Assembly (NCBI GenBank): GCA_938743325.2
Contig: OW568870.1
Span: 186,001 to 250,000 of the forward strand
Origin: Pycnococcus provasolii
Lineage: Eukaryota; Chlorophyta; Pseudoscourfieldiophyceae; Pseudoscourfieldiales; Pycnococcaceae
Length of the DNA stretch: 64,000 nucleotides
Direction: 5' to 3'
In this document: in pieces, positions 31,454-59,391 of the stretch
Layout: every line of letters begins with the position of its first letter
Numbering within the stretch: position 1 is the first letter of the stretch
Made by a program: the position numbers and the translations under genes
Notes under the pieces: model-generated
Told to the model about the DNA's origin: nothing
The model's input: the letters and a program-made list of their open reading frames with translations, nothing else
The model's database searches: none

Positions 31454-31505
<52 letters not shown>

Positions 31506-31873: not shown

Positions 31874-32032
31874 CGAGAGAGAGGCGAGGCGCAGAGCGGA
31901 AGGCGTGGAAGGCGGAGCCCGGCTGCCCGGGCCCGGGGGGGCTCTCCTCTCCGACCGCTCCAGGGGATCCGTCCTAGCACCTCGGCATGGCCTCGTCCCC
32001 CTCTCGCTGTCCTCTCGCTCGTTTTCCCGGAC

Positions 32033-32106
32033 ATGAGGACGGCGGCGGCACGCTCGACGACGTGGGTACGCGCGTGCGCGCTGCTTGTGCTCCTGGCCAC
32101 CGCGCT
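32033..32106 (+). CDS. Start of a secreted or membrane protein, cut by the gap
   Basis: An ATG at 32033 begins MRTAAARSTTWVRACALLVL, continuing LATAL into the run of Ns: a short basic N-terminus and a Leu/Ala-rich hydrophobic core, a textbook signal peptide. It is the only N-terminus pointing into the gap from the left, and it opposes the giant minus-strand gene entering from the right. It could be a separate convergent gene, or the left contig may be joined in the wrong orientation or to the wrong neighbour. Nothing of its mature protein is visible. Confidence 0.5.
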
Positions 32107-32306
32107 NNNNNNNNNNNNNNNNNNNNNNNNNNNNNNNNNNNNNNNNNNNNNNNNNNNNNNNNNNNNNNNNNNNNNNNNNNNNNNNNNNNNNNNNNNNNNN
32201 NNNNNNNNNNNNNNNNNNNNNNNNNNNNNNNNNNNNNNNNNNNNNNNNNNNNNNNNNNNNNNNNNNNNNNNNNNNNNNNNNNNNNNNNNNNNNNNNNNNN
32301 NNNNNN
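32107..32306. other. Assembly gap (200 N)
   Basis: Exactly 200 Ns, a round number that usually means a gap of unknown size. The right edge is inside a 447-bp tandem repeat unit and the left edge is unique sequence. The array may therefore be collapsed, and the true distance may be much larger. Confidence 0.97.
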
Positions 32307-35300
32307 GAACTCGGCGTCCGTCGTGTCGCCAGCCATGATCAGCACGTCGCCGCCGTTGTCGAAGTCGCCCGTGCCGATCGCAAGCGTGATGTCGCCGCCG
32401 TTGCCGTTCGTCGCGTCGCCCGTCACCACGGAGAAGTGACCGCTGCCGCCGTCCGTCGCGTCGCCCGTGGACAGGCTCATGCCGCCAGACACGCCCGCAG
32501 CGCCCGAGTCAGCCGTCGCGAGCGTCATCGTGCCGCTCGACGAAGAGTTGCTGAAGCCCGTCATCACCGTCACGTTGCCTCCGTGGCCCGTCACGGCGTA
32601 TCCGGCCGTCACGATCACGTCGCCGCCGTTGTCGATCGTCTCGTTGCCGCCCAGCGACTCGCCGGCGGTGATGATGATGTCTCCGCCGTCGCCGCCGTCC
32701 GTCGCGTCCGTCGAGTTGCCGTCGCCAGCCTTGATCGTCACGTCGCCGCCCTTGAACTCGGCGTCCGTCGTGTCGCCAGCCATGATCAGCACGTCGCCGC
32801 CGTTGTCGAAGTCGCCCGTGCCGATCGCAAGCGTGATGTCGCCGCCGTTGCCGTTCGTCGCGTCGCCCGTCACCAAGGAGAAGTGACCGCTGCCGCCGTC
32901 CGTCGCGTCGCCCGTGGACAGGCTCATGCCGCCAGACACGCCCGCAGCGCCCGAGTCAGCCGTCGCGAGCGTCATCGTGCCGCTCGACGAAGAGTTGCTG
33001 AAGCCCGTCATCACCGTCACGTTGCCTCCGTGGCCCGTCACGGCGTATCCGGCCGTCACGATCACGTCGCCGCCGTTGTCGATCGTCTCGTTGCCGCCCA
33101 GCGACTCGCCGGCGGTGATGATGATGTCTCCGCCGTCGCCGCCGTCCGTCGCGTCCGTCGAGTTGCCGTCGCCAGCCTTGATCGTCACGTCGCCGCCCTT
33201 GAACTCGGCGTCCGTCGTGTCGCCAGCCATGATCAGCACGTCGCCGCCGTTGTCGAAGTCGCCCGTGCCGATCGCAAGCGTGATGTCGCCGCCGTTGCCG
33301 TTCGTCGCGTCGCCCGTCACCAAGGAGAAGTGACCGCTGCCGCCGTCCGTCGCGTCGCCCGTGGACAGGCTCATGCCGCCAGACACGCCCGCAGCGCCCG
33401 AGTCAGCCGTCGCGAGCGTCATCGTGCCGCTCGACGAAGAGTTGCTGAAGCCCGTCATCACCGTCACGTTGCCTCCGTGGCCCGTCACGGCGTATCCGGC
33501 CGTCCACGATCACGTCGCCGCCGTTGTCGATCGTCTCGTTGCCGCCCAGCGACTCGCCGGCGGTGATGATGATATCTCCGCCGTCGCCGCCGTCCGTCGC
33601 GTCCGTCGAGTTGCCGTCGCCAGCCTTGATCGTCACGTCGCCGCCCTTGAACTCGGCGTCCGTCGTGTCACCAGCCATGATCAGCACGTCGCCGCCGTTG
33701 TCGAAGTCGCCCGTGCCGATCGCAAGCGTGATGTCGCCGCCGTTGCCGTTCGTCGCGTCGCCCGTCACCACGGAGAAGTGACCGCTGCCGCCGTCCGTCG
33801 CGTCGCCCGTGGACAGGCTCATGCCGCCAGACACGCCCGCAGCGCCCGAGTCAGCCGTCGCGAGCGTCATCGTGCCGCTCGACGAAGAGTTGCTGAAGCC
33901 CGTCATCACCGTCACGTTGCCTCCGTGGCCCGTCACGGCGTATCCGGCCGTCACGATCACGTCGCCGCCGTTGTCGATCGTCTCGTTGCCGCCCAGCGAC
34001 TCGCCGGCGGTGATGATGATATCTCCGCCGTCGCCGCCGTCCGTCGCGTCCGTCGAGTTGCCGTCGCCAGCCTTGATCGTCACGTCGCCGCCCTTGAACT
34101 CGGCGTCCGTCGTGTCGCCAGCCATGATCAGCACGTCGCCGCCGTTGTCGAAGTCGCCCGTGCCGATCGCAAGCGTGATGTCGCCGCCGTTGCCGTTCGT
34201 CGCGTCGCCCGTCACCAAGGAGAAGTGACCGCTGCCGCCGTCCGTCGCGTCGCCCGTGGACAGGCTCATGCCGCCAGACACGCCCGCAGCGCCCGAGTCA
34301 GCCGTCGCGAGCGTCATCGTGCCGCTCGACGAAGAGTTGCTGAAGCCCGTCATCACCGTCACGTTGCCTCCGTGGCCCGTCACGGCGTATCCGGCCGTCA
34401 CGATCACGTCGCCGCCGTTGTCGATCGTCTCGTTGCCGCCCAGCGACTCGCCGGCGGTGATGATGATGTCTCCGCCGTCGCCGCCGTCCGTCGCGTCCGT
34501 CGAGTTGCCGTCGCCAGCCTTGATCGTCACGTCGCCGCCCTTGAACTCGGCGTCCGTCGTGTCACCAGCCATGATCAGCACGTCGCCGCCGTTGTCGAAG
34601 TCGCCCGTGCCAATCGCAAGCGTGATGTCGCCGCCGTTGCCGTTCGTCGCGTCGCCCGTCACCAAGGAGAAGTGACCGCTGCCGCCGTCCGTCGCGTCGC
34701 CCGTGGACAGGCTCATGCCGCCAGACACGCCCGCAGCGCCCGAGTCAGCCGTCGCGAGCGTCATCGTGCCGCTCGACGAAGAGTTGCTGAAGCCCGTCAT
34801 CACCGTCACGTTGCCTCCGTGGCCCGTCACGGCGTATCCGGCCGTCACGATCACGTCGCCGCCGTTGTCGATCGTCTCGTTGCCGCCCAGCGACTCGCCG
34901 GCGGTGATGATGATATCTCCGCCGTCGCCGCCGTCCGTCGCGTCCGTCGAGTTGCCGTCGCCAGCCTTGATCGTCACGTCGCCGCCCTTGAACTCGGCGT
35001 CCGTCGTGTCACCAGCCATGATCAGCACGTCGCCGCCGTTGTCGAAGTCGCCCGTGCCGATCGCAAGCGTGATGTCGCCGCCGTTGCCGTTCGTCGCGTC
35101 GCCCGTCACCAAGGAGAAGTGACCGCTGCCGCCGTCCGTCGCGTCGCCCGTGGACAGGCTCATGCCGCCAGATACGCCCGCAGCGCCCGAGTCAGCCGTC
35201 GCGAGCGTCATCGTGCCGCTCGACGAAGAGTTGCTGAAGCCCGTCATCACCGTCACGTTGCCTCCGTGGCCCGTCACGGCGTATCCGGCCGTCACGATCA

Positions 35301-38300
35301 CGTCGCCGCCGTTGTCGATCGTCTCGTTGCCGCCCAGCGACTCGCCGGCGGTGATGATGATGTCTCCGCCGTCGCCGCCGTCCGTCGCGTCCGTCGAGTT
35401 GCCGTCGCCAGCCTTGATCGTCACGTCGCCGCCCTTGAACTCGGCGTCCGTCGTGTCACCAGCCATGATCAGCACGTCGCCGCCGTTGTCGAAGTCGCCC
35501 GTGCCGATCGCAAGCGTGATGTCGCCGCCGTTGCCGTTCGTCGCGTCGCCCGTCACCAAGGAGAAGTGACCGCTGCCGCCGTCCGTCGCGTCGCCCGTGG
35601 ACAGGCTCATGCCGCCAGACACGCCCGCAGCGCCCGAGTCAGCCGTCGCGAGCGTCATCGTGCCGCTCGACGAAGAGTTGCTGAAGCCCGTCATCACCGT
35701 CACGTTGCCTCCGTGGCCCGTCACGGCGTATCCGGCCGTCACGATCACGTCGCCGCCGTTGTCGATCGTCTCGTTGCCGCCCAGCGACTCGCCGGCGGTG
35801 ATGATGATGTCTCCGCCGTCGCCGCCGTCCGTCGCGTCCGTCGAGTTGCCGTCGCCAGCCTTGATCGTCACGTCGCCGCCCTTGAACTCGGCGTCCGTCG
35901 TGTCACCAGCCATGATCAGCACGTCGCCGCCGTTGTCGAAGTCGCCCGTGCCGATCGCAAGCGTGATGTCGCCGCCGTTGCCGTTCGTCGCGTCGCCCGT
36001 CACCAAGGAGAAGTGACCGCTGCCGCCGTCCGTCGCGTCGCCCGTGGACAGGCTCATGCCGCCAGACACGCCCGCAGCGCCCGAGTCAGCCGTCGCGAGC
36101 GTCATCGTGCCGCTCGACGAAGAGTTGCTGAAGCCCGTCATCACCGTCACGTTGCCTCCGTGGCCCGTCACGGCGTATCCGGCCGTCACGATCACGTCGC
36201 CGCCGTTGTCGATCGTCTCGTTGCCGCCCAGCGACTCGCCGGCGGTGATGATGATATCTCCGCCGTCGCCGCCGTCCGTCGCGTCCGTCGAGTTGCCGTC
36301 GCCAGCCTTGATCGTCACGTCGCCGCCCTTGAACTCGGCGTCCGTCGTGTCACCAGCCATGATCAGCACGTCGCCGCCGTTGTCGAAGTCGCCCGTGCCG
36401 ATCGCAAGCGTGATGTCGCCGCCGTTGCCGTTCGTCGCGTCGCCCGTCACCAAGGAGAAGTGACCGCTGCCGCCGTCCGTCGCGTCGCCCGTGGACAGGC
36501 TCATGCCGCCAGACACGCCCGCGGCGCCCGAGTCAGCCGTCGCGAGCGTCATCGTGCCGCTCGACGAAGAGTTGCTGAAGCCCGTCATCACCGTCACGTT
36601 GCCTCCGTGGCCCGTCACGGCGTATCCGGCCGTCACGATCACGTCGCCGCCGTTGTCGATCGTCTCGTTGCCGCCCAGCGACTCGCCGGCGGTGATGATG
36701 ATGTCTCCGCCGTCGCCGCCGTCCGTCGCGTCCGTCGAGTTGCCGTCGCCAGCCTTGATCGTCACGTCGCCGCCCTTGAACTCGGCGTCCGTCGTGTCAC
36801 CAGCCATGATCAGCACGTCGCCGCCGTTGTCGAAGTCGCCCGTGCCGATCGCAAGCGTGATGTCGCCGCCGTTGCCGTTCGTCGCGTCGCCCGTCACCAC
36901 GGAGAAGTGACCGCTGCCGCCGTCCGTCGCGTCGCCCGTGGACAGGCTCATGCCGCCAGACACGCCCGCAGCGCCCGAGTCAGCCGTCGCGAGCGTCATC
37001 GTGCCGCTCGACGAAGAGTTGCTGAAGCCCGTCATCACCGTCACGTTGCCTCCGTGGCCCGTCACGGCGTATCCGGCCGTCACGATCACGTCGCCGCCGT
37101 TGTCGATCGTCTCGTTGCCGCCCAGCGACTCGCCGGCGGTGATGATGATGTCTCCGCCGTCGCCGCCGTCCGTCGCGTCCGTCGAGTTGCCGTCGCCAGC
37201 CTTGATCGTCACGTCGCCGCCCTTGAACTCGGCGTCCGTCGTGTCGCCAGCCATGACCAGCACGTCGCCGCCGTTGTCGAAGTCGCCCGTGCCGATCGCA
37301 AGCGTGATGTCGCCGCCGTTGCCGTTCGTCGCGTCGCCCGTCACCAAGGAGAAGTGACCGCTGCCGCCGTCCGTCGCGTCGCCCGTGGACAGGCTCATGC
37401 CGCCAGACACGCCCGCAGCGCCCGAGTCAGCCGTCGCGAGCGTCATCGTGCCGCTCGACGAAGAGTTGCTGAAGCCCGTCATCACCGTCACGTTGCCTCC
37501 GTGGCCCGTCACGGCGTATCCGGCCGTCACGATCACGTCGCCGCCGTTGTCGATCGTCTCGTTGCCGCCCAGCGACTCGCCGGCGGTGATGATGATATCT
37601 CCGCCGTCGCCGCCGTCCGTCGCGTCCGTCGAGTTGCCGTCGCCAGCCTTGATCGTCACGTCGCCGCCCTTGAACTCGGCGTCCGTCGTGTCACCAGCCA
37701 TGATCAGCACGTCGCCGCCGTTGTCGAAGTCGCCCGTGCCGATCGCAAGCGTGATGTCGCCGCCGTTGCCGTTCGTCGCGTCGCCCGTCACCAAGGAGAA
37801 GTGACCGCTGCCGCCGTCCGTCGCGTCGCCCGTGGACAGGCTCATGCCGCCAGACACGCCCGCAGCGCCCGAGTCAGCCGTCGCGAGCGTCATCGTGCCG
37901 CTCGACGAAGAGTTGCTGAAGCCCGTCATCACCGTCACGTTGCCTCCGTGGCCTGTCACGGCGTATCCGGCCGTCACGATCACGTCGCCGCCGTTGTCGA
38001 TCGTCTCGTTGCCGCCCAGCGACTCGCCGGCGGTGATGATGATGTCTCCGCCGTCGCCGCCGTCCGTCGCGTCCGTCGAGTTGCCGTCGCCAGCCTTGAT
38101 CGTCACGTCGCCGCCCTTGAACTCGGCGTCCGTCGTGTCGCCAGCCATGATCAGCACGTCGCCGCCGTTGTCGAAGTCGCCCGTGCCGATCGCAAGCGTG
38201 ATGTCGCCGCCGTTGCCGTTCGTCGCGTCGCCCGTCACCAAGGAGAAGTGACCGCTGCCGCCGTCCGTCGCGTCGCCCGTGGACAGGCTCATGCCGCCAG

Positions 38301-41300
38301 ACACGCCCGCAGCGCCCGAGTCAGCCGTCGCGAGCGTCATCGTGCCGCTCGACGAAGAGTTGCTGAAGCCCGTCATCACCGTCACGTTGCCTCCGTGGCC
38401 CGTCACGGCGTATCCGGCCGTCACGATCACGTCGCCGCCGTTGTCGATCGTCTCGTTGCCGCCCAGCGACTCGCCGGCGGTGATGATGATATCTCCGCCG
38501 TCGCCGCCGTCCGTCGCGTCCGTCGAGTTGCCGTCGCCAGCCTTGATCGTCACGTCGCCGCCCTTGAACTCGGCGTCCGTCGTGTCACCAGCCATGATCA
38601 GCACGTCGCCGCCGTTGTCGAAGTCGCCCGTGCCGATCGCAAGCGTGATGTCGCCGCCGTTGCCGTTCGTCGCGTCGCCCGTCACCAAGGAGAAGTGACC
38701 GCTGCCGCCGTCCGTCGCGTCGCCCGTGGACAGGCTCATGCCGCCAGACACGCCCGCAGCGCCCGAGTCAGCCGTCGCGAGCGTCATCGTGCCGCTCGAC
38801 GAAGAGTTGCTGAAGCCCGTCATCACCGTCACGTTGCCTCCGTGGCCCGTCACGGCGTATCCGGCCGTCACGATCACGTCGCCGCCGTTGTCGATCGTCT
38901 CGTTGCCGCCCAGCGACTCGCCGGCGGTGATGATGATATCTCCGCCGTCGCCGCCGTCCGTCGCGTCCGTCGAGTTGCCGTCGCCAGCCTTGATCGTCAC
39001 GTCGCCGCCCTTGAACTCGGCGTCCGTCGTGTCGCCAGCCATGATCAGCACGTCGCCGCCGTTGTCGAAGTCGCCCGTGCCGATCGCAAGCGTGATGTCG
39101 CCGCCGTTGCCGTTCGTCGCGTCGCCCGTCACCACGGAGAAGTGACCGCTGCCGCCGTCCGTCGCGTCGCCCGTGGACAGGCTCATGCCGCCAGACACGC
39201 CCGCAGCGCCCGAGTCAGCCGTCGCGAGCGTCATCGTGCCGCTCGACGAAGAGTTGCTGAAGCCCGTCATCACCGTCACGTTGCCTCCGTGGCCCGTCAC
39301 GGCGTATCCGGCCGTCACGATCACGTCGCCGCCGTTGTCGATCGTCTCGTTGCCGCCCAGCGACTCGCCGGCGGTGATGATGATGTCTCCGCCGTCGCCG
39401 CCGTCCGTCGCGTCCGTCGAGTTGCCGTCGCCAGCCTTGATCGTCACGTCGCCGCCCTTGAACTCGGCGTCCGTCGTGTCGCCAGCCATGATCAGCACGT
39501 CGCCGCCGTTGTCGAAGTCGCCCGTACCGATCGCAAGCGTGATGTCGCCGCCGTTGCCGTTCGTCGCGTCGCCTGTCACCACGGAGAAGTGACCGCTGCC
39601 GCCGTCCGTCGCGTCGCCCGTGGACAGGCTCATGCCGCCAGACACGCCCGCAGCGCCCGAGTCAGCCGTCGCGAGCGTCATCGTGCCGCTCGACGAAGAG
39701 TTGCTGAAGCCCGTCATCACCGTCACGTTGCCTCCGTGGCCCGTCACGGCGTATCCGGCCGTCACGATCACGTCGCCGCCGTTGTCGATCGTCTCGTTGC
39801 CGCCCAGCGACTCGCCGGCGGTGATGATGATGTCTCCGCCGTCTCCGCCGTCCGTCGCGTCCGTCGAGTTGCCGTCGCCAGCCTTGATCGTCACGTCGCC
39901 GCCCTTGAACTCGGCGTCCGTCGTGTCGCCAGCCATGATCAGCACGTCGCCGCCGTTGTCGAAGTCGCCCGTGCCGATCGCAAGCGTGATGTCGCCGCCG
40001 TTGCCGTTCGTCGCGTCGCCCGTCACCAAGGAGAAGTGACCGCTGCCGCCGTCCGTCGCGTCGCCCGTGGACAGGCTCATGCCGCCAGACACGCCCGCAG
40101 CGCCCGAGTCAGCCGTCGCGAGCGTCATCGTGCCGCTCGACGAAGAGTTGCTGAAGCCCGTCATCACCGTCACGTTGCCTCCGTGGCCCGTCACGGCGTA
40201 TCCGGCCGTCACGATCACGTCGCCGCCGTTGTCGATCGTCTCGTTGCCGCCCAGCGACTCGCCGGCGGTGATGATGATATCTCCGCCGTCTCCGCCGTCC
40301 GTCGCGTCCGTCGAGTTGCCGTCGCCAGCCTTGATCGTCACGTCGCCGCCCTTGAACTCGGCGTCCGTCGTGTCGCCAGCCATGATCAGCACGTCGCCAC
40401 CGTTGTCGAAGTCGCCCGTGCCGATCGCAAGCGTGATGTCGCCGCCGTTGCCGTTCGTCGCGTCGCCCGTCACCAAGGAGAAGTGACCGCTGCCGCCGTC
40501 CGTCGCGTCGCCCGTAGACAGGCTCATGCCGCCAGACACGCCCGCAGCGCCCGAGTCAGCCGTCGCGAGCGTCATCGTGCCGCTCGACGAAGAGTTGCTG
40601 AAGCCCGTCATCACCGTCACGTTGCCTCCGTGGCCCGTCACGGCGTATCCGGCCGTCACGATCACGTCGCCGCCGTTGTCGATCGTCTCGTTGCCGCCCA
40701 GCGACTCGCCGGCGGTGATGATGATGTCTCCGCCGTCGCCGCCGTCCGTCGCGTCCGTCGAGTTGCCGTCGCCAGCCTTGATCGTCACGTCGCCGCCCTT
40801 GAACTCGGCGTCCGTCGTGTCACCAGCCATGATCAGCACGTCGCCGCCGTTGTCGAAGTCGCCCGTGCCGATCGCAAGCGTGATGTCGCCGCCGTTGCCG
40901 TTCGTCGCGTCGCCCGTCACCACGGAGAAGTGACCGCTGCCGCCGTCCGTCGCGTCGCCCGTGGACAGGCTCATGCCGCCAGACACGCCCGCAGCGCCCG
41001 AGTCAGCCGTCGCGAGCGTCATCGTGCCGCTCGACGAAGAGTTGCTGAAGCCCGTCATCACCGTCACGTTGCCTCCGTGGCCCGTCACGGCGTATCCGGC
41101 CGTCACGATCACGTCGCCGCCGTTGTCGATCGTCTCGTTGCCGCCCAGCGACTCGCCGGCGGTGATGATGATATCTCCGCCGTCGCCGCCGTCCGTCGCG
41201 TCCGTCGAGTTGCCGTCGCCAGCCTTGATCGTCACGTCGCCGCCCTTGAACTCGGCGTCCGTCGTGTCGCCAGCCATGATCAGCACGTCGCCGCCGTTGT

Positions 41301-44300: not shown

Positions 44301-44790
44301 TGTCTCCGCCGTCGCCGCCGTCCGTCGCGTCCGTCGAGTTGCCGTCGCCAGCCTTGATCGTCACGTCGCCGCCCTTGAACTCGGCGTCCGTCGTGTCGCC
44401 AGCCATGATCAGCACGTCGCCGCCGTTGTCGAAGTCGCCCGTACCGATCGCAAGCGTGATGTCGCCGCCGTTGCCGTTCGTCGCGTCGCCTGTCACCACG
44501 GAGAAGTGACCGCTGCCGCCGTCCGTCGCGTCGCCCGTGGACAGGCTCATGCCGCCAGACACGCCCGCAGCGCCCGAGTCAGCCGTCGCGAGCGTCATCG
44601 TGCCGCTCGACGAAGAGTTGCTGAAGCCCGTCATCACCGTCACGTTGCCTCCGTAGCCCGTCACGGCGTATCCGGCCGTCACGATCACGTCGCCGCCGTT
44701 GTCGATCGTCTCGTTGCCGCCCAGCGACTCGCCGGCGATGATGATGATATCTCCGCCGTCGCCGCCGTCCGTCGCGTCCGTCGAGTTGCC
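32307..44790 (-). repeat. 447-bp tandem array, about 27-28 units
   Basis: The unit is 447 bp (149 codons, no frame change), repeated head to tail with anchor positions every 447 bp from 32467 to 44537; one interval is 448 because of the insertion near 33504. Units differ at only a handful of positions, mostly silent or conservative: GCC or ACC after GT(C/G), ATGTCT or ATATCT, AAG or ACG giving Leu/Val, CCCGTACC for CCCGTGCC. Each unit holds about eight solenoid coils, for example GGDGGDIII, NGGDVIVTAG, HGGNVTVMTG and NGGDITLAIG. No cysteine occurs in the unit. Confidence 0.97.
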
Positions 44791-47700
44791 GTCGCCAGCG
44801 GAAATGTAGACGCTTCCTCCAGTGTACTCGGCGTCCGTCGTGTCGCCAGCATTGATGATCACGTCGCCGCCGTCTCCGAAGTTGCCGGTTCCGACGAGCG
44901 CGCGAATGTCACCTCCTGATCCAAGATTCGCATCGCCGGTCGTCAACTGGATGTACCCAGACTCTCCACTTGTCGTGTTTCCGGTCTCTACGAGGACGAA
45001 GCCGCTCACGCCGCTGTCTCCTGCGTCATCAGTAAGCAGCGTCATCGCACCGCTGTTGCCTGTTCGACCCTTTCCTGTCGTGAAGGACATGGCGCCACCA
45101 TCGCCCAAGTCGCCTATGCCGGCGGTGAACATCATATTGCCACCAGTCATATTTTGGGCAGTCGTGCGGCCGGATCGGAACGCCATGTCGCCACCGTTGT
45201 TGGTGTCGCCATCGCCCACGGCAATCGTGATATCGCCGCCGTGGCCTCCCACTGCTGTTCCGGTCACGAGCGTCAGTGTGCCGGTGTCGCCATTGCACGA
45301 ACTACCCGTTGCTACTTCGATGTCGCCGCTGTTGGCATTTGATCCGCCGTTCTGTGTACGAATCACAACATCTCCGCTCGTTGTGGAAGCTTCACTCGTG
45401 CCACTAGTCACGTACACGGAGCCTCCGAAGTGAGAGTTTGAGCTTCCACCCTCAATGTGCACATCTCCGCCACGGCCAGTGCCGCTCGAGTCGATGCTCG
45501 ATCCGCCCATGATGCGAACAAGTCCTCCGCTACCCACGTGAGCGTCTCCCGCAGTTATCTGCATCTTTCCACCCTGGCACTGCTGAGTGCATCCCGCGTA
45601 AATCGCAGCGACCGTCACGTTGTCGACATCCATGCCATTGCACGTGTAATCGCCATTCGAGCAAATGCGCTCGCATCCGCGAGTCACAGCGTAGTACACG
45701 CTCGCATTCACCATCGTGCCGCTGCAATCGAACGTGGCCATGTCACAATTTGCCACCACATTCGCCAAGGCATCGCCGCCGCTCAGCATGAAGCCGCCGC
45801 CCTGCGAGGAGCCATCGGTGTTTGCGGCATTTCCAGCCTCCATCACTATAGTACCACCGTTGCCGTTCTCGTCAAACGTCCTGCCTGCAAGCATGAAGAT
45901 GTCTCCGCCATGTCCAACCGACCCATCGCCCACAGACATGCGAATGTCGCCTCCACGACCCGTCACGGTGTTACCAGTGACAGCCAGAATGTCGCCAGAA
46001 TCACCGGCATTCGAGTAGCCCGTGTTTAGCGAGATTCCTCCGCTCACGCCTGCCACGCCAGACTCAGGCGTGAAGATACTCACAGCTCCGCTATCCGTCG
46101 CGTTGCCAATACCAGAACGCATGATCAGCGCACCGCCACCTCCCTGAGTCGCTGTACCAGCTTGAATTCGGACGTAACCGCCAGTCCTATTCACTGCGGT
46201 TGTATCACCAGCATCAATGTAAACATTTCCACCATCGTCGACGTCACCGGTGCCAGACCAAAGCATGATGTCGCCGCCGTTGCCGTTCGTCGCATTACCG
46301 GTAATGACGGAGAAATCTCCGCTTCCGCCGTCCGTCGCGTCGCCCGTGGACAGGCTCATCGCGCCAGACACGCCCGCAGCGCCCGAGTCAGCCGTCGCGA
46401 GCGCCATGGCGCCGCTCGACGAAGAGTTGCTGAAGCCCGTCATCACCGTCACGTTGCCTCCGTAGCCCGTCACGGCGTATCCGGCCGTCACGATCACGTC
46501 GCCGCCGTTGTCGATCGTCTCGTTGCCGCCCAGCGACTCGCCGGCGGTGATGATGATATCTCCGCCGTCGCCGCCGTCCGTCGCGTCCGTCGAGTTGCCG
46601 TCGCCAGCCTTGATCGTCACGTCGCCGCCCTTGAACTCGGCGTCCGTCGTGTCACCAGCCATGATCAGCACGTCGCCGCCGTTGTCGAAGTCGCCCGTGC
46701 CGATCGCAAGCGTGATGTCGCCGCCGTTGCCGTTCGTCGCGTCGCCCGTCACCACGGAGAAGTGACCGCTGCCGCCGTCCGTCGCGTCGCCCGTGGACAG
46801 GCTCATGCCGCCAGACACGCCCGCAGCGCCCGAGTCAGCCGTCGCGAGCGTCATCGTGCCGCTCGACGAAGAGTTGCTGAAGCCCGTCATCACCGTCACG
46901 TTGCCTCCGTGGCCCGTCACGGCGTATCCGGCCGTCACGATCACGTCGCCGCCGTTGTCGATCGTCTCGTTGCCGCCCAGCGACTCGCCGGCGGTGATGA
47001 TGATGTCTCCGCCGTCGCCGCCGTCCGTCGCGTCCGTCGAGTTGCCGTCGCCAGCCTTGATCGTCACGTCGCCGCCCTTGAACTCGGCGTCCGTCGTGTC
47101 GCCAGCCATGATCAGCACGTCGCCGCCGTTGTCGAAGTCGCCCGTGCCGATCGCAAGCGTGATGTCGCCGCCGTTGCCGTTCGTCGCGTCGCCCGTCACC
47201 AAGGAGAAGTGACCGCTGCCGCCGTCCGTCGCGTCGCCCGTGGACAGGCTCATGCCGCCAGACACGCCCGCAGCGCCCGAGTCAGCCGTCGCGAGCGTCA
47301 TCGTGCCGCTCGACGAAGAGTTGCTGAAGCCCGTCATCACCGTCACGTTGCCTCCGTGGCCCGTCACGGCGTATCCGGCCGTCACGATCACGTCGCCGCC
47401 GTTGTCGATCGTCTCGTTGCCGCCCAGCGACTCGCCGGCGGTGATGATGATGTCTCCGCCGTCGCCGCCGTCCGTCGCGTCCGTCGAGTTGCCGTCGCCA
47501 GCCTTGATCGTCACGTCGCCGCCCTTGAACTCGGCGTCCGTCGTGTCGCCAGCCATGATCAGCACGTCGCCGCCGTTGTCGAAGTCGCCCGTGCCGATCG
47601 CAAGCGTGATGTCGCCGCCGTTGCCGTTCGTCGCGTCGCCCGTCACCAAGGAGAAGTGACCGCTGCCGCCGTCCGTCGCGTCACCCGTGGACAGGCTCAT

Positions 47701-50700
47701 GCCGCCAGACACGCCCGCAGCGCCCGAGTCAGCCGTCGCGAGCGTCATCGTGCCGCTCGACGAAGAGTTGCTGAAGCCCGTCATCACCGTCACGTTGCCT
47801 CCGTGGCCCGTCACGGCGTATCCGGCCGTCACGATCACGTCGCCGCCGTTGTCGATCGTCTCGTTGCCGCCCAGCGACTCGCCGGCGGTGATGATGATGT
47901 CTCCGCCGTCGCCGCCGTCCGTCGCGTCCGTCGAGTTGCCGTCGCCAGCCTTGATCGTCACGTCGCCGCCCTTGAACTCGGCGTCCGTCGTGTCGCCAGC
48001 CATGATCAGCACGTCGCCGCCGTTGTCGAAGTCGCCCGTGCCGATCGCAAGCGTGATGTCGCCGCCGTTGCCGTTCGTCGCGTCGCCCGTCACCAAGGAG
48101 AAGTGACCGCTGCCGCCGTCCGTCGCGTCGCCCGTGGACAGGCTCATGCCGCCAGACACGCCCGCAGCGCCCGAGTCAGCCGTCGCGAGCGTCATCGTGC
48201 CGCTCGACGAAGAGTTGCTGAAGCCCGTCATCACCGTCACGTTGCCTCCGTGGCCCGTCACGGCGTATCCGGCCGTCACGATCACGTCGCCGCCGTTGTC
48301 GATCGTCTCGTTGCCGCCCAGCGACTCGCCGGCGATGATGATGATGTCTCCGCCGTCGCCGCCGTCCGTCGCGTCCGTCGAGTTGCCGTCACCAGCGGAA
48401 ATGTAGACGCTTCCTCCAGTGTACTCGGCGTCCGTCGTGTCGCCAGCATTGATGATCACGTCGCCGCCGTCTCCGAAGTTGCCGGTTCCGACGAGCGCGC
48501 GAATGTCACCTCCTGATCCAAGATTCGCATCGCCGGTCGTCAACTGGATGTACCCAGACTCTCCACTTGTCGTGTTTCCGGTCTCTACGAGGACGAAGCC
48601 GCTCACGCCGCTGTCTCCTGCGTCATCAGTAAGCAGCGTCATCGCACCGCTGTTGCCTGTTCGACCCTTTCCTGTCGTGAAGGACATGGCGCCACCGTCG
48701 CCCAAGTCGCCTATGCCGGCGGTGAACATCATATTGCCACCAGTCATACTTTGGGCAGTCGTGCGGCCGGATCGGAACGCCATGTCGCCACCGTTGTTGG
48801 TGTCGCCATCGCCCACGGCAATCGTGATATCGCCGCCGTGGCCTCCCACTGCTGTTCCGGTCACGAGCGTCAGTGTGCCGGTGTCGCCATTGCACGAACT
48901 ACCCGTTGCTACTTCGATGTCGCCGCTGTTGGCATTTGATCCGCCGTTCTGTGTACGAATCACAACATCTCCGCTCGTTGTGGAAGCTTCACTCGTGCCA
49001 CTAGTCACGTACACGGAGCCTCCGAAGTGAGAGTTTGAGCTTCCACCCTCAATGTGCACATCTCCGCCACGGCCAGTGCCGCTCGAGTCGATGCTCGATC
49101 CGCCCATGATGCGAACAAGTCCTCCGCTACCCACGTGAGCGTCTCCCGCAGTTATCTGCATCTTTCCACCCTGGCACTGCTGAGTGCATCCCGCGTAAAT
49201 CGCAGCGACCGTCACGTTGTCGACATCCATGCCATTGCACGTGTAATCGCCATTCGAGCAAATGCGCTCGCATCCGCGAGTCACAGCGTAGTACACGCTC
49301 GCATTCACCATCGTGCCGCTGCAATCGAACGTGGCCATGTCACAATTTGCCACCACATTCGCCAAGGCATCGCCGCCGCTCAGCATGAAGCCGCCGCCCT
49401 GCGAGGAGCCATCGGTGTTTGCGGCATTTCCAGCCTCCATCACTATAGTACCACCGTTGCCGTTCTCGTCAAACGTCCTGCCTGCAAGCATGAAGATGTC
49501 TCCGCCATGTCCAACCGACCCATCGCCCACAGACATGCGAATGTCGCCTCCACGACCCGTCACGGTGTTACCAGTGACAGCCAGAATGTCGCCAGAATCA
49601 CCGGCATTCGAGTAGCCCGTGTTAAGCGAGATTCCTCCGCTCACGCCTGCCACGCCAGACTCAGGCGTGAAGATACTCACAGCTCCGCTATCCGTCGCGT
49701 TGCCAATACCAGAACGCATGATCAGCGCACCGCCACCTCCCTGAGTCGCTGTACCAGCTTGAATTCGGACGTAACCGCCAGTCCTATTCACTGCAGTTGT
49801 ATCACCGGCATCAATGTAAACATTTCCACCATCGTCGACGTCACCGGTGCCAGACCAAAGCATGATGTCGCCGCCGTTGCCGTTCGTCGCATTACCGGTA
49901 ATGACGGAGAAATCTCCGCTTCCGCCGTCCGTCGCGTCGCCCGTGGACAGGCTCATCGCACCAGACACGCCCGCAGCGCCCGAGTCAGCCGTCGCGAGCG
50001 TCATGGCGCCGCTCGACGAAGAGTTGCTGAAGCCCGTCATCACCGTCACGTTGCCTCCGTAGCCCGTCACAGCGTATCCGGCCGTCACGATCACGTCGCC
50101 GCCGTTGTCGATCGTCTCGTTGCCGCCCAGCGACTCGCCGGCGATGATGATGATGTCTCCGCCGTCGCCGCCGTCCGTCGCGTCCGTCGAGTTGCCGTCA
50201 CCAGCGGAAATGTAGACGCTTCCTCCAGTGTACTCGGCGTCCGTCGTGTCGCCAGCATTGATGATCACGTCGCCGCCGTCTCCGAAGTTGCCGGTTCCGA
50301 CGAGCGCGCGAATGTCACCTCCTGATCCAAGATTCGCATCGCCGGTCGTCAACTGGATGTACCCAGACTCTCCACTTGTCGTGTTTCCGGTCTCTACGAG
50401 GACGAAGCCGCTCACGCCGCTGTCTCCTGCGTCATCAGTAAGCAGCGTCATCGCACCGCTGTTGCCTGTTCGACCCTTTCCTGTCGTGAAGGACATGGCG
50501 CCACCGTCGCCCAAGTCGCCTATGCCGGCGGTGAACATCATATTGCCACCAGTCATACTTTGGGCAGTCGTGCGGCCGGATCGGAACGCCATGTCGCCAC
50601 CGTTGTTGGTGTCGCCATCGCCCACGGCAATCGTGATATCGCCGCCGTGGCCTCCCACTGCTGTTCCGGTCACGAGCGTCAGTGTGCCGGTGTCGCCATT

Positions 50701-53700
50701 GCACGAACTACCCGTTGCTACTTCGATGTCGCCGCTGTTGGCATTTGATCCGCCGTTCTGTGTACGAATCACAACATCTCCGCTCGTTGTGGAAGCTTCA
50801 CTCGTGCCACTAGTCACGTACACGGAGCCTCCGAAGTGAGAGTTTGAGCTTCCACCCTCAATGTGCACATCTCCGCCACGGCCAGTGCCGTTCGAGTCGA
50901 TGCTCGATCCGCCCATGATGCGAACAAGTCCTCCGCTACCCACGTGAGCGTCTCCCGCAGTTATCTGCATCTTTCCACCCTGGCACTGCTGAGTGCATCC
51001 CGCGTAAATCGCAGCGACCGTCACGTTGTCGACATCCATGCCATTGCACGTGTAATCGCCATTCGAGCAAATGCGCTCGCATCCGCGAGTCACAGCGTAG
51101 TACACGCTCGCATTCACCATCGTGCCGCTGCAATCGAACGTGGCCATGTCACAATTTGCCACCACATTCGCCAAGGCATCGCCGCCGCTCAGCATGAAGC
51201 CGCCGCCCTGCGAGGAGCCATCGGTGTTTGCGGCATTTCCAGCCTCCATCACTATAGTACCACCGTTGCCGTTCTCGTCAAACGTCCTGCCTGCAAGCAT
51301 GAAGATGTCTCCGCCATGTCCAACCGACCCATCGCCCACAGACATGCGAATGTCGCCTCCACGACCCGTCACGGTGTTACCAGTGACAGCCAGAATGTCG
51401 CCAGAATCACCGGCATGGGCGTAGCCTGTGCTCATTGAAATTGTTCCACTCACGCCTGCCACGCCAGATTCGGGTGTGTATATTGTGACTGAACCGCTAT
51501 CCGTCGCGTTGCCAATACCAGAACGCATGATCAGCGCACCGCCACCTCCCTGAGTCGCTGTACCGGCTCGAACTTCGATGCGTCCACCTGTCATATTTGG
51601 CGCAGTGGTCAAGCCAGCGTCAATGAAGACATTACCTCCATCTCCTGTATCACCTGATCCGACTCTTGCCTCGATATCACCTCCAGAGCCATTGGTTGCA
51701 TCGCCTGTGTAAAAGCGAATCGATCCAGTTTTGCCGCACGTTGAGTCTCCCGTCAACAGTGTCTGATTTCCACTCACACCACAAGTTCCAGCGTCATCAG
51801 TGAACAAAATTATTTCTCCAGACGATGTGGAGTTGCTGAAACCCGATGTGAGAAGAAGGTGTCCACCGAAAGAACTAGTTGCGCGCCCACCTGTAATCTG
51901 AACACTTCCACCGACATCCGTGACGTTGTTTTGGCCATAGCCTTTGCCGCCGTCAATGATGACATCTCCGCCACTGCCTCCCGATGTTACAGCAGTACTT
52001 CCATTCACCCCATACGTGCCATTTCCTCCTACGATATGCACAATTCCACCAGAACTGTTCGAATCTCGGGTTTCACCAGCGACGATTTGAACGTAACCAC
52101 CATCTGTGTAGTTGCCGTGTCCAACAAAGAGGTTGATGTCGCCTCCAGATGCAGCATCGCTGGGACCAGTCTGTAAGCTTATGTCTCCTGAGTCACCAAA
52201 ATGAGACAGGCCGGTAAAGACTTCGAAGTCTCCTGAAACGCCGTATGTTCCTGAATCTGGAGTTTTCATGTGAATATCACCGGAAGAACCATGCACCGAC
52301 TCGCCAGAGAATAGCTGGATGTGTCCACCCTCAGCGTGATTCTTGTAATCAAACTCACCAATAACGCAAGGGGCGGACGACGAGGTAGCTTGACAACCGC
52401 CAGATGCGACTCCATCAGTAAAGGCAGCAGACGTATTACCCGCCTGAATGCGAACATAGCCGCCCGCGGTGTCGATGCCAAGTCCTGCGTTAATGTGAAC
52501 ATCTCCACCTATTGAACCGCCACTTCCAGCATCAATGTCAACAACGCCACCAGCCATGCCGTGCTGATTGTTCACTCCTGCGTTCACTCTAACTTTGCCG
52601 CCATGGAACAATCCAGTACCAGCATTCATGTACAGGTTGGATCCGACGATTAGAGATATATCACCAGCTCCGCCGTCTATTGCGTTGCCCGTGGTTACGT
52701 TGTAAGCTCCTGAGTAGCCATTGGTGGTGCCTCCGGTGTCAAAAGTCATCGCACCGCTCACCCCACCCATTCCACTCTGTCCACTTGATCCGCCAGCATC
52801 AGGCGTTTTCACAACAATGTTTCCAGAGGAGGTTGCCTTGCTTGTACCGGACGTGATCGATACATTGCCTCCAAAGGAATTCGCAGAAACACCGGCGGTA
52901 ATGTTCACTGAACCCCCTTGATCACACATCGGGGTGGATGCGCCATTATAACCAGTTGGGTCACAAGCACCTATTCCTCCCCGCGACTCGCCAGCGAAGA
53001 GTTCAATCCACCCGCCGAGATGATTGTCCGATGACCCGCCAAGGAGAGTGACATTTCCACCTTCACCCCGCATTGACTCGCCGCCTTTCAATTGAATGTT
53101 GCCACCATTTTCCTTTCCGTCACCGTATGGTACCCTCCGCAACGCGAAGTTGTCCGGAGGGAGTTCGAACGGAACCCACGGCAAACCTGACGACAGCTGC
53201 GTATACTTCAGTGCAACTTCAGCATCTCCAGCGGTAAACCACATATCGCCACCCGCCGTGTGCGAATCTTCTGCCGCCGAATTTCCGTACGTAGAGACTC
53301 CCAGACCAGCTGTCATTGAGATATTACCACCCTCTTGGCGATGTGCTGCGGCAAGTCCGGCAGTCACTAGGAAAGATCCGCCGCTCTCTCCCCCTGAGCC
53401 GGGGGTCGTGGCGAAAGTCGTCGACCCACCGTCTCCACCAAAGCCGAGCTGGTCTGTTCCGTTGCCAATCTCAAAGATCATATGACCACCGCGACCACGA
53501 ACGGCATCACCTGTTGACACAAGCAAATCTCCAGAATTTCCGTTTCCGGCGTCTCCCGTTCCCATCGAGAAGTTTCCCGATACTCCTGTGGAGACGGTGC
53601 GAAATACGCTGGGAAATGCATCAGCGCTAAATATCGTCACATTTCCCGACGAAACCTTAGCATTGCACCATCCAGGAGACGTCGGGGACGTTGGTATTTC

Positions 53701-56700
53701 CAGACCAAAGGTGCCAGCGCCACAACGATTGCCACCACCCTCGCCAGCCTGGTTGGTACTATTTCCAACGCCAGAGATGATCTCGATGGGACCTCCGTGG
53801 AATGAATGACCCTCTCCACCATGAATCTGGATGTAGCCGCCCAGGTTGTGTTCCGAATTGCCACCCCAAAGGTCAATTGTTCCTCCCTCGTAGTCTCCAT
53901 TGTGAGACTTGTATTCAAAGGAGTTGTACATTTCGTCCAACGCGTCCCCGCCACGGATCACAACACGTTGGTTTCCCGTTATATTTGCATGCTTCTTTGC
54001 ATTCATGAATATGCTTCCATCATTATTTCGGACGTCCCCGTCGGCGCAGCCAGTTGCTGTTGCTGGACTGGACACTTGCTTGCCTGTGCAGTAAGATCCT
54101 CCAGTTCCAGAGGTAATGTTGACATCACCGCCGACGCCTTGAACCGATCCGTACAGATTGCCACCATTGCCAGCACGAATGTTCACACCGCCGGTGTCCC
54201 CCTCGGTGCTGTTGCCGGTGACAATGTCAATCAGTCCGGAATCTGTGTATGCCTCACCTGTACGGAATTGCATTTGACCCGAAATGCCGTAGTCCGGTCC
54301 AGGCTTGTCCAACTTTTCACCGTCGGCTCGCGGTGTGCCGGCATTGTTGAGGTAGCGCTCAAACATTAAAGAATTCGAACGGTCAAAGGCGTCGTTGGTG
54401 ATGAGGCTTATGTTGCCGGATCGAGAAGTTCCGTCCATGCCCGGGTCGCCGGAAAGCATTAGAATAGAACCGCCATTTTTGTAAGATGACGAGCCGGCTA
54501 TGAGCGAAATGTTACCACCCCAGCCATACCCACGCTCCGCACTGCCTAGCGGCCAGTTGGTGCGAAAGCCTTCCGCGCCATGGCCGTCACCAGCCTTGAT
54601 CGTAAATTCACCGCCGGGACCCGCAAGGCCGTGACCTGACTCCATCAGAACGTTGCCACCATTTCCCTGCGCTTTCGTCGACGAGTCTCCTCCCAACATG
54701 GTGTACATAGCTCCGTTTGCCTGCGCTGCGTTGTTTGTTCCCAGCTCGATCGTGAAATTGCCACCCTGACCCTTTTGGCCCAAATCTTCGTCGCCGTCGG
54801 GATAGTAGTTCAATTCAGCCAATTCGGTAGATTCACCAGTGCGGAAGTAAAAGCTGCCAGCGCCACCGATTTCACCTGAATCAGAAGTGTTCAACCAAAA
54901 ATCGCCAGAGTGGGTCTTGCCCGTGCCTGTTATCATCTTGATCTCGCCTCCTCGGCGACCCTGCTCTGAGCTCGATTGCCCGCCATTGACAAAAATGTGT
55001 CCTCCGTACTGCACACCATCGCCACCGAACAAGGACACGTTTCCTCCCTTGCCAATTGCGTTCCAATTCGTAGCTCGGCCTCCCATTAGGGTAACTGTAC
55101 CTCCCTCGGGATAGTTAACGGGAAATTCCTTGGTTCCAGTAGCCGATGCTGCCTGCTCGGTAGCCTCGCCAGCTTCGAGCGTCATATTAGCTCCGAAGTA
55201 TGAAGACATGCCATTTCTCATGTAAATGTCGCCCGCTATACTGTTTGCGCTATCACCGGTGCTGATATTCAGCCCACCAGTATGCGCGCTAACCGTGGAG
55301 GCGGTTCCGATGATCACGTCACCCGTGCGATGGGGACCATTCAGCGGCCTGACTTCGGAGCTAACTTCGAAGGCATACCGTGTTGCCGCGCCGAACTTTA
55401 TGTTAGCATGACTAAGATCGCCGGTGTAACCCGTGATACCCGACGTAAGCTTAATTGAGCCTCCGATGTTCTTTGTACTCGGCCCGCCATGTAGCGACAC
55501 GTCGCCACCAAAACCGGGATACTTCGCATTTGATTCGAGACTTCCCTCCACAGATTCGCCCAGCATGCCGTGACCTCCGACAATCGAGACATTACCGCCA
55601 ATGCCTTGCGCACTGTAGCCTCCGTTGACGTGAAAGGCGCCGCCGTATGCATTCTTGCTGTCCATGGTGGTGTTGCCCGCGTACACGCGAACAGAGCCAC
55701 CATGTGATCCCGAAGAGTGGCCGTTCGTGATGTTCACGTCACCAGATGACTTTGCACCTGAGCTGCCGGTGCGAATCCACACATAACCGGACATGCCTTC
55801 GTAGCTATATCCATCCGATTTGTCTCCAGAATGGCCCGTGGCGATGGTTATATTACCTGAATCGCCCTTCGGAACGGTTCCCGTATACATTTCGATCTGT
55901 CCAGTACTGCCATCGTTGGGACTCACCGAGGTACGTACCGTCACATTGCCAGTCGTGCCCACCCATTTCGTATAGCCAGCACCACCAGATTCAACAACAA
56001 CGTCGCCGGTAATCAGATCGTCGTAACGTGTGGAGCCTCCCGTGATAGTGATAAGACCCGATCGCTGGTCATCGTCGAGCATCTTCCCAGCCTTTCGTCC
56101 TGCATTGATACGAAGTGATCCATCGCCGCGGATGGTGTTGGGAAGATCGCCATAATCGGGATTCCACGATTTTCCCTCAAGCTCTGCTGCGTCCTGACTC
56201 GAGACTTCGCTAAATGCATTCGGCCCGTCGCTGGCTTGCCTTCCTTTGCCGTCGAAGAAAATGCCGCCAATCTTCACACGTGCGCGTGCATCAAAGTCCA
56301 CGTAGTTGTGCGATGTGATGTACAGCTCCTTCGCCTCACCTTCCGCAGGATTTGGCCAGTCGTCGGTGCTTGACGTACGATACGCACCAAATAAGTTTTC
56401 GCTGCCGAGTTTGGGGAGGATGCCGATGCGCGACACACAAGTTCCTTGCCTTTCCTTATACATCATTTCCCACTCTTCATCTACTTCGCCGTCGAGATTG
56501 GTTGTTCCCACCGTCTTCAGAGGTCGAGAGCAACCATCAATCTCGATGTCGTTTGCCACAAACAGCGGGCGACCGAATGTAGCAAAATCTTGCTTCTGAT
56601 CAAGCTCGATGGCTTCTTTTGTCGTGAGGCGGTAAGGAGTTTCGCCCTGATCCGCCATCAGAAGGGCGCGCTCGTCATTCAGCGAGCCAGCTTCCACGCC

Positions 56701-59391
56701 TTTGTCAGCCATCAGGTGGAGTGCTTTGTCAAGATCATCACCCTTGATGTATTGGTACGTTCCGTTCACAGCGATCGACTCGCCGGGAACACCGACGCGC
56801 AGCAGAGCGCCTCCGTGCGTGTTCGACGTCCATGTTGCAGCAGCCTTAGAACCACGAGTGTTGTGTGTGATCTTGCAAATCTCTGAATTGGGGTCGTCCG
56901 CACAGGTGGGGTCGCGTCCGCCGTCGATTCGCACCTCAGCATCCTTCGTACGCAACACAATCAAGCCGCTGTGCAGATTCGTAGCCTGAGTCGCGGGATT
57001 TTCCGCGAGAATCGGGTCGGCATTATCTTCCGTGGTTGGCGCGCCAACGGCTTTCACCTCCTTGTCGTCATCCGTCACAGATCCTGTGGAGATGAGGAAG
57101 AAACGCTCACCGTCGTTGTATTTGTCCTCAGCCCCTTGACGAACAGGACGCAAGTCCTGGAAGTTGTCGTTCATTCGAAGATTGCCAACACGCAGTGCGG
57201 CATGACCAGGGACATCGTTGCCGTCAACGTAAAATTCGCTCAGGTCATCGGGGCACTCGCTCAGAAGTTCGTCGCGACTCGCATCATTTCGTCCCGAGTA
57301 TCCCGCGGGCGTGACCAAAGCGCCGCTCGATTTGCAGAGCGCCGTTAGGCGCGTCGTGCCCGCCGATGTCAGCTGCGTGATGGTGCGTTTTGCTTCGTTG
57401 ACTGTAAGCGAACGTCGTGCGGTAATGTTGCTCTCGTCGAGCGTGTCATTCTCGCCCAGAGCGCGACGTACGGGGCTTGTTCCGGTGCCAAGCCACTCGT
57501 TTGTGGCGAGCACAATGCTACCCACGGTAACCATGTGAACACCCTTCGTCTCGATTCCACCCTGTTCAACTGAGCCCTGCACGGGCTCTGTGTTGAGCCA
57601 CAGCGGCTGGCCAGGACTTGTCTGGTATACGCCGGTGCCGTTGATTTGAAGCACGCCACCACGCGAGAAAAATCCCTTCGCTTTTTCTTCTGACGAAGTT
57701 GTAAAGCGACTCTTGAGGCCCACAGGTCCTTCGCCAACGTAAAGAGCCGGTGCCTCAACTTTGACATGTTCCGTGGAGGTGAGGTAGAGCGGGTATGATC
57801 CCAGGGTGCCGTCCGACGACTCAGGCCTCTCGCCGTACGGTATGTTCTTTTCCCGCGTGTTCCCCGTGACCAGGTTGATGCGCTCACCCTGATCAGGGTC
57901 CTTTTTCATTTCAGTTATCTTGTCGGTGTTAAGCCACGTGAAGCGATGTCCCGCGTCGCCGTTCGTATTGATCTCGATCACTGGCATCCGCAGGCGCTTC
58001 ATCCCCGCCTTGACCTTCTGTAGGTGGTCGTAGAAGTAAGGCGATTGGAGGAATTCCGGATCGTCCGCACTTCCCAGAAACTCCATGTTAAGCTTCGCCA
58101 ACGCGAGCCTCGCGCCGTGATAGCTGTTGACAGAAGAAGTGAGGTGGCTCGGAAGTCCGCCGACGACGTTCCCTGGTGACGTTGGCGGCATCGTCTTTCC
58201 AATTCGCACCTTACCCAGGCGGTTGTCACTTGACATCGAAAGCTGATCGAACGTGAAGTTCACGAGCGACACCGATCCGTTCCGAAACATGACGACGTCC
58301 TTGTCCTGGAGAGGAAGCGAGGTAATTTCGAAATTTGTCATGCCCTGAAGCAGCCGAATCCCCGCGCGAGCCATGCCCTCGACGAAGCCTTGAGGCACAC
58401 TGCTGTCCTGCGCACCTCGCGCGCCGAGCGAGTTGCCCTGAGTGTCCCGGCCGTGAGGAGCCACAATGTCAAGCACGCTCGCGCCGTCAAGCGTAACGTT
58501 GAGCTTGATGCGTGGGAAGTCGCGAAAGTTGTCGGCAAGCCGCGTGCGCAGACCTGGGCCGCGATCGTCCTGAAGATCCGCAAAGTCCGGCGTGTCACGG
58601 GAATCTGTGAACGTCATGAGGCTGTAGGACTTACCCGCGAAGCCGAGGGAACTTTTCGTGTTCTCGATCTTGTACTGGCTCTTGATGCCTGGGTAAAGCG
58701 GGTCGTCATTGTTGTAGTTCTCCGTGAGCATCAGACGTGCGCCGGACGGAAAGTCTTCCTCCTCGCCGGTGACCCCGCCGATGTAGTTCACGTCAAACGT
58801 CGCATCCGTGCCATTGACCTTGACGAGCACGTCGCCTTTGGCCCAGCCGCCCGAGGCTACGTAGTCGGAGTCCTCGGTACCCATCTTCACGACAAACAGG
58901 TCGGAGATTTGCTTTTCGTCTGCCAATCCCAGCTGCCGAGCCACGGTCACCGTCTGGTTCATCACCTCGCAGTTCGAGCCCGTCAGCTCGTTGCAGGTTG
59001 GCTTGATGTCTGACACGGCTTCCATGTAGAGGAAGTCTGGGCGACTGTCCAGCGCCATTAGCTTGCGCTTACCCGTGTTCACCGTTCCGTCGGCGGGTAA
59101 GTACGTGCCTCCGTCGCGAAACACAATGCCGCCCGTCTGCACCTTGCCCTGGACGTTCACGCCTGGAACCTCCGTGAAGGGGTCGACGATGTTAGGCCGG
59201 CCCACGTTCATGTTGCCGTGCACGTTCAGGTTGTAATTGGCGTCGCTATCGTACGGCCCGATGTTGACGGGAAGGTGAAACGTCATGTTCTGACCCGCGT
59301 CGATAGTTTGGTATGCCTGCGCGACGTGGTGGCACGCGTGAGCGAGAAGCGCGATGATTGCCAGAACGAGGCGTGCTGCAGGCCACTGCAT
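32307..59391 (-). CDS. Giant secreted beta-solenoid repeat protein (partial, one frameshift)
   Basis: The frame runs from 59391 to a one-base insertion near 33504 (8,629 codons) and resumes in the shifted frame to the gap (399 more), so over 9,000 residues. The start is MQWPAARLVLAIIALLAHAC, a signal peptide. The unique N-terminal region (59300-56050, about 1,100 residues) contains N-glycosylation sites but no domain I recognise. From about 56050 on, every 12-20 residues carry GG(D/N)(V/I/L) followed by a short beta-strand and a G: the pattern of a parallel beta-helix. The region progresses from degenerate coils to 1809-bp super-units with a cysteine-rich insert, then to nearly identical 149-residue units. 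There is no C-terminus, anchor or intron visible. The frame is also open upstream to 60048, but that part translates a (GGT)n tract. Likely a cell-surface or extracellular-matrix protein or adhesin; function unknown. Confidence 0.8.
46012..49608 (-). repeat. Super-unit 2, 3597 bp (1809 + 4 x 447)
   Basis: This segment matches the super-unit at 49609-51417 over its ends but is longer by 1788 bp, exactly four 447-bp units (anchors 46793, 47240, 47687, 48134). It shows amplification of the small unit inside the large one. Confidence 0.92.
49609..51417 (-). repeat. Super-unit 1, 1809 bp (603 residues)
   Basis: Reference copy of the super-unit: it contains one 447-like section, then coils with MAFRSGRTTAQ and VIRTQNGGSN motifs, then the cysteine-rich insert. 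Identity to super-unit 2 breaks sharply at about 51415, where GCATGGGCGTAGCC replaces GCATTCGAGTAGCC. A third copy of its upper part lies at about 44790-46011. Confidence 0.9.
50978..51160 (-). other. Cysteine-rich insert, copy 1 (also 49169-49351 and 45572-45754)
   Basis: About 60 residues that break the coil pattern and hold seven Cys: NCDMATFDC, RGCERIC, YTCNG, AGCTQQC. It includes N-glycosylation sites (VNASVYY, DNVTVAA). It sits between the coils GGFMLSGGDALANVV and GGKMQITAGDAHVG, so it should project as a disulfide-linked loop or small knob from the solenoid. Three copies, spaced 1809 and 3597 bp, are almost identical in DNA. The rest of the repeat region is nearly free of cysteine. 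Confidence 0.85.
51418..56050 (-). repeat. Degenerate beta-solenoid coils
   Basis: About 1,540 residues of the same coil type but with no long DNA identity between units: for example GGDVSLHGG, GGSIKLTSG, GGTVTLMGG, GGNISLIAG and GGYVQIVAG. Codon use and spacing vary. These look like the older part of the protein, from which the amplified units derive. Confidence 0.88.

Follow-up and report, generated by a model that had tools for sequence, protein, structure and literature searches.

The locus considered here raises the question of whether an open minus-strand frame of many thousand codons encodes a genuine protein and, if so, what such a protein might do. It lies in a window of 64,000 nucleotides (the whole stretch of DNA analyzed, C10:186001-250000) from a genome of 32.33 Mb in 46 contigs.

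The genome and the reading frame

The host is read as an alga, as the original prediction assumed, because PF00504, a chlorophyll-binding family, is matched 51 times in the genome and because L009, the sole light-harvesting protein compared with the PDB, matches green-type chlorophyll a/b-binding chains, ranked after eight multi-domain 9vfj chains. Its plastid is probably green. Nine other frames of the window were scanned against Pfam, yielding ordinary eukaryotic domains in five (ELMO, NFACT, MatE, EF-hand, and CDK5RAP3) and none in four.

Several further features of the genome can be observed. TTAGGG/CCCTAA repeats (31-48 units within the outer 1,500 bases) occur at all six contig ends sampled, from three contigs, and short interstitial tracts of the same repeat are seen in the window at 245-288, 3470-3499, 8812-8841, 13522-13571, and 24453-24464. 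Twelve light-harvesting matches with identical scores lie on both strands in two clusters, C31:133072-142609 and 360395-366434. The small-subunit rRNA region (C2, locus L052), inspected by eye, has an apparent insert, perhaps an intron, upstream of its 3' end.

On the minus strand, a frame without stops covers 33403-60048, with 8,881 codons counted from the first ATG. The methionine at 59391, which opens the signal-like sequence MQWPAARLVLAIIALLAHACHHVAQA, is the likely start codon. From this position to an extra G at about 33505 we count 8,629 open codons, which reproduces the predicted length. Past the indel, the neighboring frame provides 399 further open codons, up to an assembly gap of unresolved bases. 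With the indel taken as an assembly error, the giant protein would have about 9,028 residues, and the claim of more than 9,000 residues would hold to that extent; the end of the protein is missing, its C-terminus lying within or beyond the gap, and the length and copy number of the repeat array are those resolved by the assembler. The C-terminal part of the gene was sought beyond the gap and not found: the strict coil motif occurs 0 times in the three minus frames of 25000-32106, vs. 72 times in a 5.8-kb coil stretch.

Within the array, which repeats one unit about 34 times, the length of the frame is weak evidence of coding. The coding evidence independent of the array consists of homologues, described below, and of the 3,055 codons that precede the first array unit. 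These codons contain no stop in this frame, vs. 118, 126, 55, 93, and 127 stops in the other five. Opposite the array, an antisense frame of 3,852 codons (33361-44919, plus strand) is open, probably as a by-product of the repeated unit.

Coils, repeated units, and relatives

The encoded protein begins with a putative signal peptide followed by a conserved head, and the remainder is dominated by short coils (Table 1). The signal-like start proposed originally is supported by hydropathy, and in two environmental homologues, P0001 and P0003, a hydrophobic segment stands directly ahead of the conserved head, as in the window protein. The motif of the coils, [GS]G-x-phi-x-phi-x-x-G, is extended by six residues; the full profile reads [GS]G-x-[VIL]-x-[ILV]-x-[AGTS]-G-x-[SGAT]-x-x-x-x, and successive coils are most often spaced by 15 residues. 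The predicted coil architecture is borne out by the frequency of this motif, which far exceeds that in shuffled sequences: the loose form occurs 457 times in the frame (mean 58, maximum 76 in 20 shuffles), and the strict form 71 times in pre-array frame residues 1401-3275 (mean 2.9, maximum 7 in 200 shuffles). Nine successive coils form one 149-residue unit (447 bp). The frame contains 32 unit starts (one diverged, five, and 26), and about two more lie below the frame shift. Cysteine-rich modules, kept in a paralogue, break the run of coils three times.

Table 1. Features of the giant gene and the adjoining sequence (window coordinates).
Feature	Position	Strand	Remarks
Coding span, giant coil protein; 3' end not assembled	32307..59391	-	27,085 bp
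Putative signal peptide	59314..59391	-	visual and hydropathy assessment (15-residue maximum 2.15)
Conserved head, ~1,085 residues	56059..59313	-	one genome match; 29% identity to P0001 and P0003
Pre-array coil region, 15-residue coils	50227..56058	-	colinear with P0001 to about frame residue 2,701
Cysteine-rich module, copy 1	50983..51153	-	7 Cys and an eighth ~94 residues further downstream; kept in the C32 paralogue
First nine-coil unit copy, diverged, 149 residues	49780..50226	-	
Cysteine-rich module, copy 2	49174..49344	-	
Sub-array, five nine-coil units	46183..48417	-	
Cysteine-rich module, copy 3	45577..45747	-	
Main array, ~28 tandem 447-bp / 149-residue units	32307..44820	-	cut by gap
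One-base insertion, frame-shifting	~33505	-	one G more than the neighboring array unit
Assembly gap, 200 N	32107..32306	.	abuts array

The N-terminal region was originally described as unique, a claim contradicted by P0001 (2,378 aa) and P0003 (1,726 aa), metagenomic proteins of ENA source. The head is 28.9% identical to P0001 over 1,108 columns (E 8e-92) and 29.1% identical to P0003 (E 2e-90). The coils match P0001 with 33.7% identity over 1,423 columns (E 5e-107), and frame residues 1417-2701 align with P0001 residues 950-2235 at 34%. With a shared layout of signal-like segment, head, and colinear coils, both proteins are homologues of the window protein. A head query of 5.8 billion proteins yielded no relative among the 7,989 candidates scored. 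That search missed P0001 because the latter is outside its length limits; P0003 is inside them and was presumably missed at the word-sharing step. A coil query of the protein collection retrieved P0001 together with P0002, a fibre protein considered below, and a query with the P0001 head retrieved P0003 (7,988-7,990 candidates were scored in each of the head, coil, and P0001-head searches).

The homologues differ from the window protein in extent. P0003 comes from a contig of 5,323 bases and ends inside the coils. P0001 is without the long nine-coil array and without the approximately 6,500 residues located after frame residue ~2,700 of the window protein: past the aligned part, it continues for 143 residues to its own end (a stop codon is not seen), vs. 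about 6,550 in the window frame. The last 133 residues of P0001 gave no match in the genome, in a search run without a positive control and with the window gene ending in the gap. The simpler reading is an expansion in the window lineage rather than a loss from P0001.

Within the genome, no paralogue of the head was found. A second giant gene is located on another contig (C32:143779-181372; loci L029-L031, L037, and L038). It spans about 12,530 aa including a 200-N gap (166706-166905); its frame is shifted at least once and, past a C-terminus free of repeats, ends at a stop codon. The two genes share the coils, the nine-coil order, the cysteine modules, high-GC3 tandem repeats, a gap, and a frame shift. 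The C32 giant differs in its length, in its repeats of 508 and about 252 residues, and in its N-terminus, whose PPC-like match is weak (E 2e-4; its 22.6 bits fall short of the Pfam cut-off, 25.9). Broken-looking fragments of the C32-type repeats are found at C28:546219-549833 and C6:235545-236243. Eleven bases separate the C28 unit from the 508-residue unit of C32, and two TGA codons stand in frame in the C6 piece.

The order of the nine coils is conserved between proteins and is not an artefact of one array. Nine-coil models built from units of other proteins, the target's own unit being excluded from each, scored 57-98 bits in the true order for seven model-target pairs. Cyclic shifts of this order gave broadly similar scores (53-106 bits). 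Block-permuted orders (60 for each pair, means 25-50 bits) reached the true score in 0/60 cases for five pairs and in 1/60 for two, the two exceptions scoring 83.8 vs. 79.0 and 85.3 vs. 82.6 bits. Thus, the result largely survives permutation.

Purifying selection has acted on the amino acids of the array, as follows from an excess of synonymous changes in the window array and the same tendency in the C32 repeats. Among 29 array units we observed 11 distinct non-synonymous and 19 synonymous changes, against an opportunity of 997:344 (2.9:1). Counted by occurrence, the changes are 29 and 53, respectively, with 55 of the 82 at codon position 3. These 29 remained of 32 units after three that differed at 15 or more residues, among them the unit with the frame shift, had been set aside. 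The 252-residue repeats of C32 have 8 non-synonymous vs. 15 synonymous changes (opportunity 641:259; 27 of 28 units, with units of more than 30 differences skipped).

These results bear on another scenario, in which the locus is decaying or was never fully translated, the product being a short protein of the head and first coils and the array mostly a passive expansion. Such a history could account for the one-base indel at about 33505 and the adjoining assembly gap, for the broken appearance of the related C28 and C6 fragments, and for the existence of P0001, in which the head and first coils occur but the array does not. However, it is at odds with purifying selection within the array and with a frame that stays open through 27 kb save one indel, and the C32 giant, despite its own frame shift and gap, still reaches a stop after a non-repeated C-terminus. 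We therefore regard decay as unlikely.

Base composition suggests how the array may have been maintained. The third-position GC rises from 0.51 in the unique coils and 0.66 in the head, through 0.68 and 0.79 in mixed parts, to 0.92 in the main array; in C32, the unique parts have 0.29-0.55 and the repeats 0.87-0.88. Because two loci show a like contrast, these values would fit GC-biased gene conversion acting together with tandem amplification. Codon choice or mutation bias in the repeats may be other causes of this contrast.

Predicted fold, fibre-type relatives, and sequons

The statement that the protein belongs to no described family agrees with the scans run against Pfam, NCBIfam, PHROGs, and PDB. 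Nothing exceeded the Pfam and NCBIfam cut-offs for the three parts scanned, which were the head, the pre-array coils, and 44401-51561. For the head and pre-array coils, PHROGs gave no match at E <= 0.01, and the PDB sequence search gave no significant relative. Weak matches to DUF5789, Ig_ZP2_N, and LisH_2, and 41 antibody-like PDB chains with E of 0.022-0.096, were set aside as chance. In a search of open PMC papers, mostly judged by title, no title describes such genes or proteins, and the words "alga" and "solenoid" are absent from the main text of one survey of huge proteins (PMC11573180).

The sequence pattern of the coils makes a beta-solenoid the likely fold. Structure prediction was consistent with the original proposal only in the regularity of the strands: in the AlphaFold model of a 753-residue coil stretch (8 sequences) strands recur about once per coil, but the mean pLDDT is 40.6, too weak for assigning a solenoid, with block means of 59-74 confined to the region of the cysteine module. 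The head model is unusable (pLDDT 28.7). A Foldseek search with the coil model found nothing at E <= 0.001, the best match being IgA1 protease (E 0.66), followed by antigen 43. Alternatively, the coils may form an intertwined trimer as in S74 fibres.

Beta-helical antifreeze proteins with 15-residue coils exist. By analogy, the Ser/Thr/Asp face of the coils might be a surface that binds ice, minerals, or polysaccharides rather than part of a structural rod, and the regular small polar residues of the coil profile could be read in this way. As neither the head nor the pre-array coils have a significant sequence relative in the PDB, we consider such a binding function very improbable.

A different origin might be suggested by the relative P0002 (2,114 aa, NCBI source). 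Like the window protein, it contains tandem nine-coil units, and the window unit matches it with 42.9% identity over 147 aa. Unlike it, P0002 carries fibre chaperone domains (three Peptidase_S74 matches), and it also matches two PHROG tail fibre families; possibly, it is a polyprotein of fibres. The giant gene could accordingly be a domesticated or inserted gene of viral or phage type, encoding trimeric coils similar to those of tail fibres and not a host matrix protein; the low confidence of the monomeric AlphaFold models could fit an obligate trimer. However, viral contigs yielded no relative in exact short-peptide scans, which are insensitive to diverged relatives, and neither did tblastn against phage genomes; the same holds for bacterial and archaeal genomes and plasmids, and the negative PHROGs scan points the same way. 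The genome, in which the window gene is assembled without its own C-terminus, gave no match to the Peptidase_S74 chaperone domain (PF13884), and among 14 control genomes E. coli alone matches it. In addition, the genes for CDK5RAP3 and NFACT in the window are eukaryotic.

A further argument is provided by the distribution of N-glycosylation sequons. In the window protein, 10 of the 15 coils with Asn at position 3 carry Ser/Thr at position 5, vs. 10 of the 69 coils without this Asn (p 1e-4), a p-value that, like those that follow, is indicative only because the coils share ancestry by duplication and are not independent. The same coupling is found in P0001 (9/11 with Asn vs. 14/50 without, p 0.0015); in P0003 (5/7 vs. 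8/24, p 0.10) and C32 (4/7 vs. 5/28, p 0.055) it has the same direction and is not significant. In P0002 it is absent (4/14 vs. 17/62, p 1). Among control residues at position 3, tallied with P0002 excluded, Ser/Thr is more frequent after Ala (10/21), Thr (4/7), and Glu (5/9), less frequent than in the rest after Asp, Ser, and His, and about equal after Gly. Thus, the coupling is strongest for Asn, though not exclusive to it.

The number of sequons also exceeds that in 500 shuffles for the pre-array coils of the window protein (37 vs. mean 21.6, maximum 32) and for the coils of P0001 (30 vs. mean 16.3, maximum 28); the 14 sequons of the P0003 coils equal the shuffle maximum. The counts for the three heads, for P0002, for a single array unit, and for the parts of C32 did not exceed the shuffle range. 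Because of this coupling and excess in the coils, passage of the protein through the ER appears to be favored. The coupling, though by itself compatible with a virus, adds to the arguments against a viral or phage-type gene, an origin that we consider distinctly unlikely.

Proposed role and comparison with other giant proteins

We find it most plausible, with a probability of roughly 0.6, that the product of the gene is an extracellular rod, secreted and N-glycosylated, which was lengthened by concerted tandem amplification. The signal peptide would direct the product into the secretory path. Behind the head of about 1,085 residues, the 15-residue coils, which number in the hundreds, recur in an order of nine, and are broken here and there by cysteine-rich modules, would form a long fibrous rod, closed by a C-terminal cap that is present in P0001 and unassembled in the window gene. 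Tandem amplification and homogenization of one nine-coil unit would have made this rod about 6,500 residues longer than that of P0001. In the C-terminal 250 residues of P0001 and C32, the 19-residue hydropathy maxima are 1.22 and 0.64, respectively, with no strongly hydrophobic segment.

From these features we infer that the protein is secreted in vivo and that its most likely role is that of a structural coat, spacer, or adhesive fibre at the cell surface or in the extracellular matrix. The earlier, still tentative suggestion of a function at the surface, in the wall, or in adhesion gains some support from the sequon coupling.

If both genes are expressed, two loci of 27 and 38 kb, which together take up about 0.2% of the 32-Mb genome, would yield extracellular proteins of about 9,000 and 12,500 residues. 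Tentatively, and with somewhat less than even confidence, we suggest that they represent a new eukaryotic family of giant extracellular rods with a conserved nine-coil super-repeat, in which tandem arrays, kept uniform by GC-biased gene conversion, set the length and thereby provide an alga with adjustable megadalton surface fibres; the coils shared with S74 proteins may mean a common origin with viral-type fibres. Handles are offered by the head family, by the nine-coil unit, and by the GC3 specific to the repeats: relatives can be looked for in algal transcriptomes, and the unit lends itself to expression and structure solution. Strains could also be compared for rod length, a trait that may bear on protection of the surface, on adhesion, or on escaping grazers and viruses.

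Known giant proteins of bacteria offer analogies by description, not homologies. One example is SwmB of Synechococcus WH8102, a surface protein of 10,791 aa cited for motility and grazing defence in the accounts consulted (PMC4949707, PMC7994388). Like the window protein, it is presented there as a giant exported protein of a marine phototroph, but a bacterial one. Another example is provided by the giant open reading frames of Omnitrophota, one of them of 39,678 aa, for which a coat has been proposed (PMC10066038). As described in that source, these proteins resemble the window protein in being extremely long and putatively extracellular, whereas they are bacterial and the 39,678-aa protein has 42 predicted transmembrane helices.
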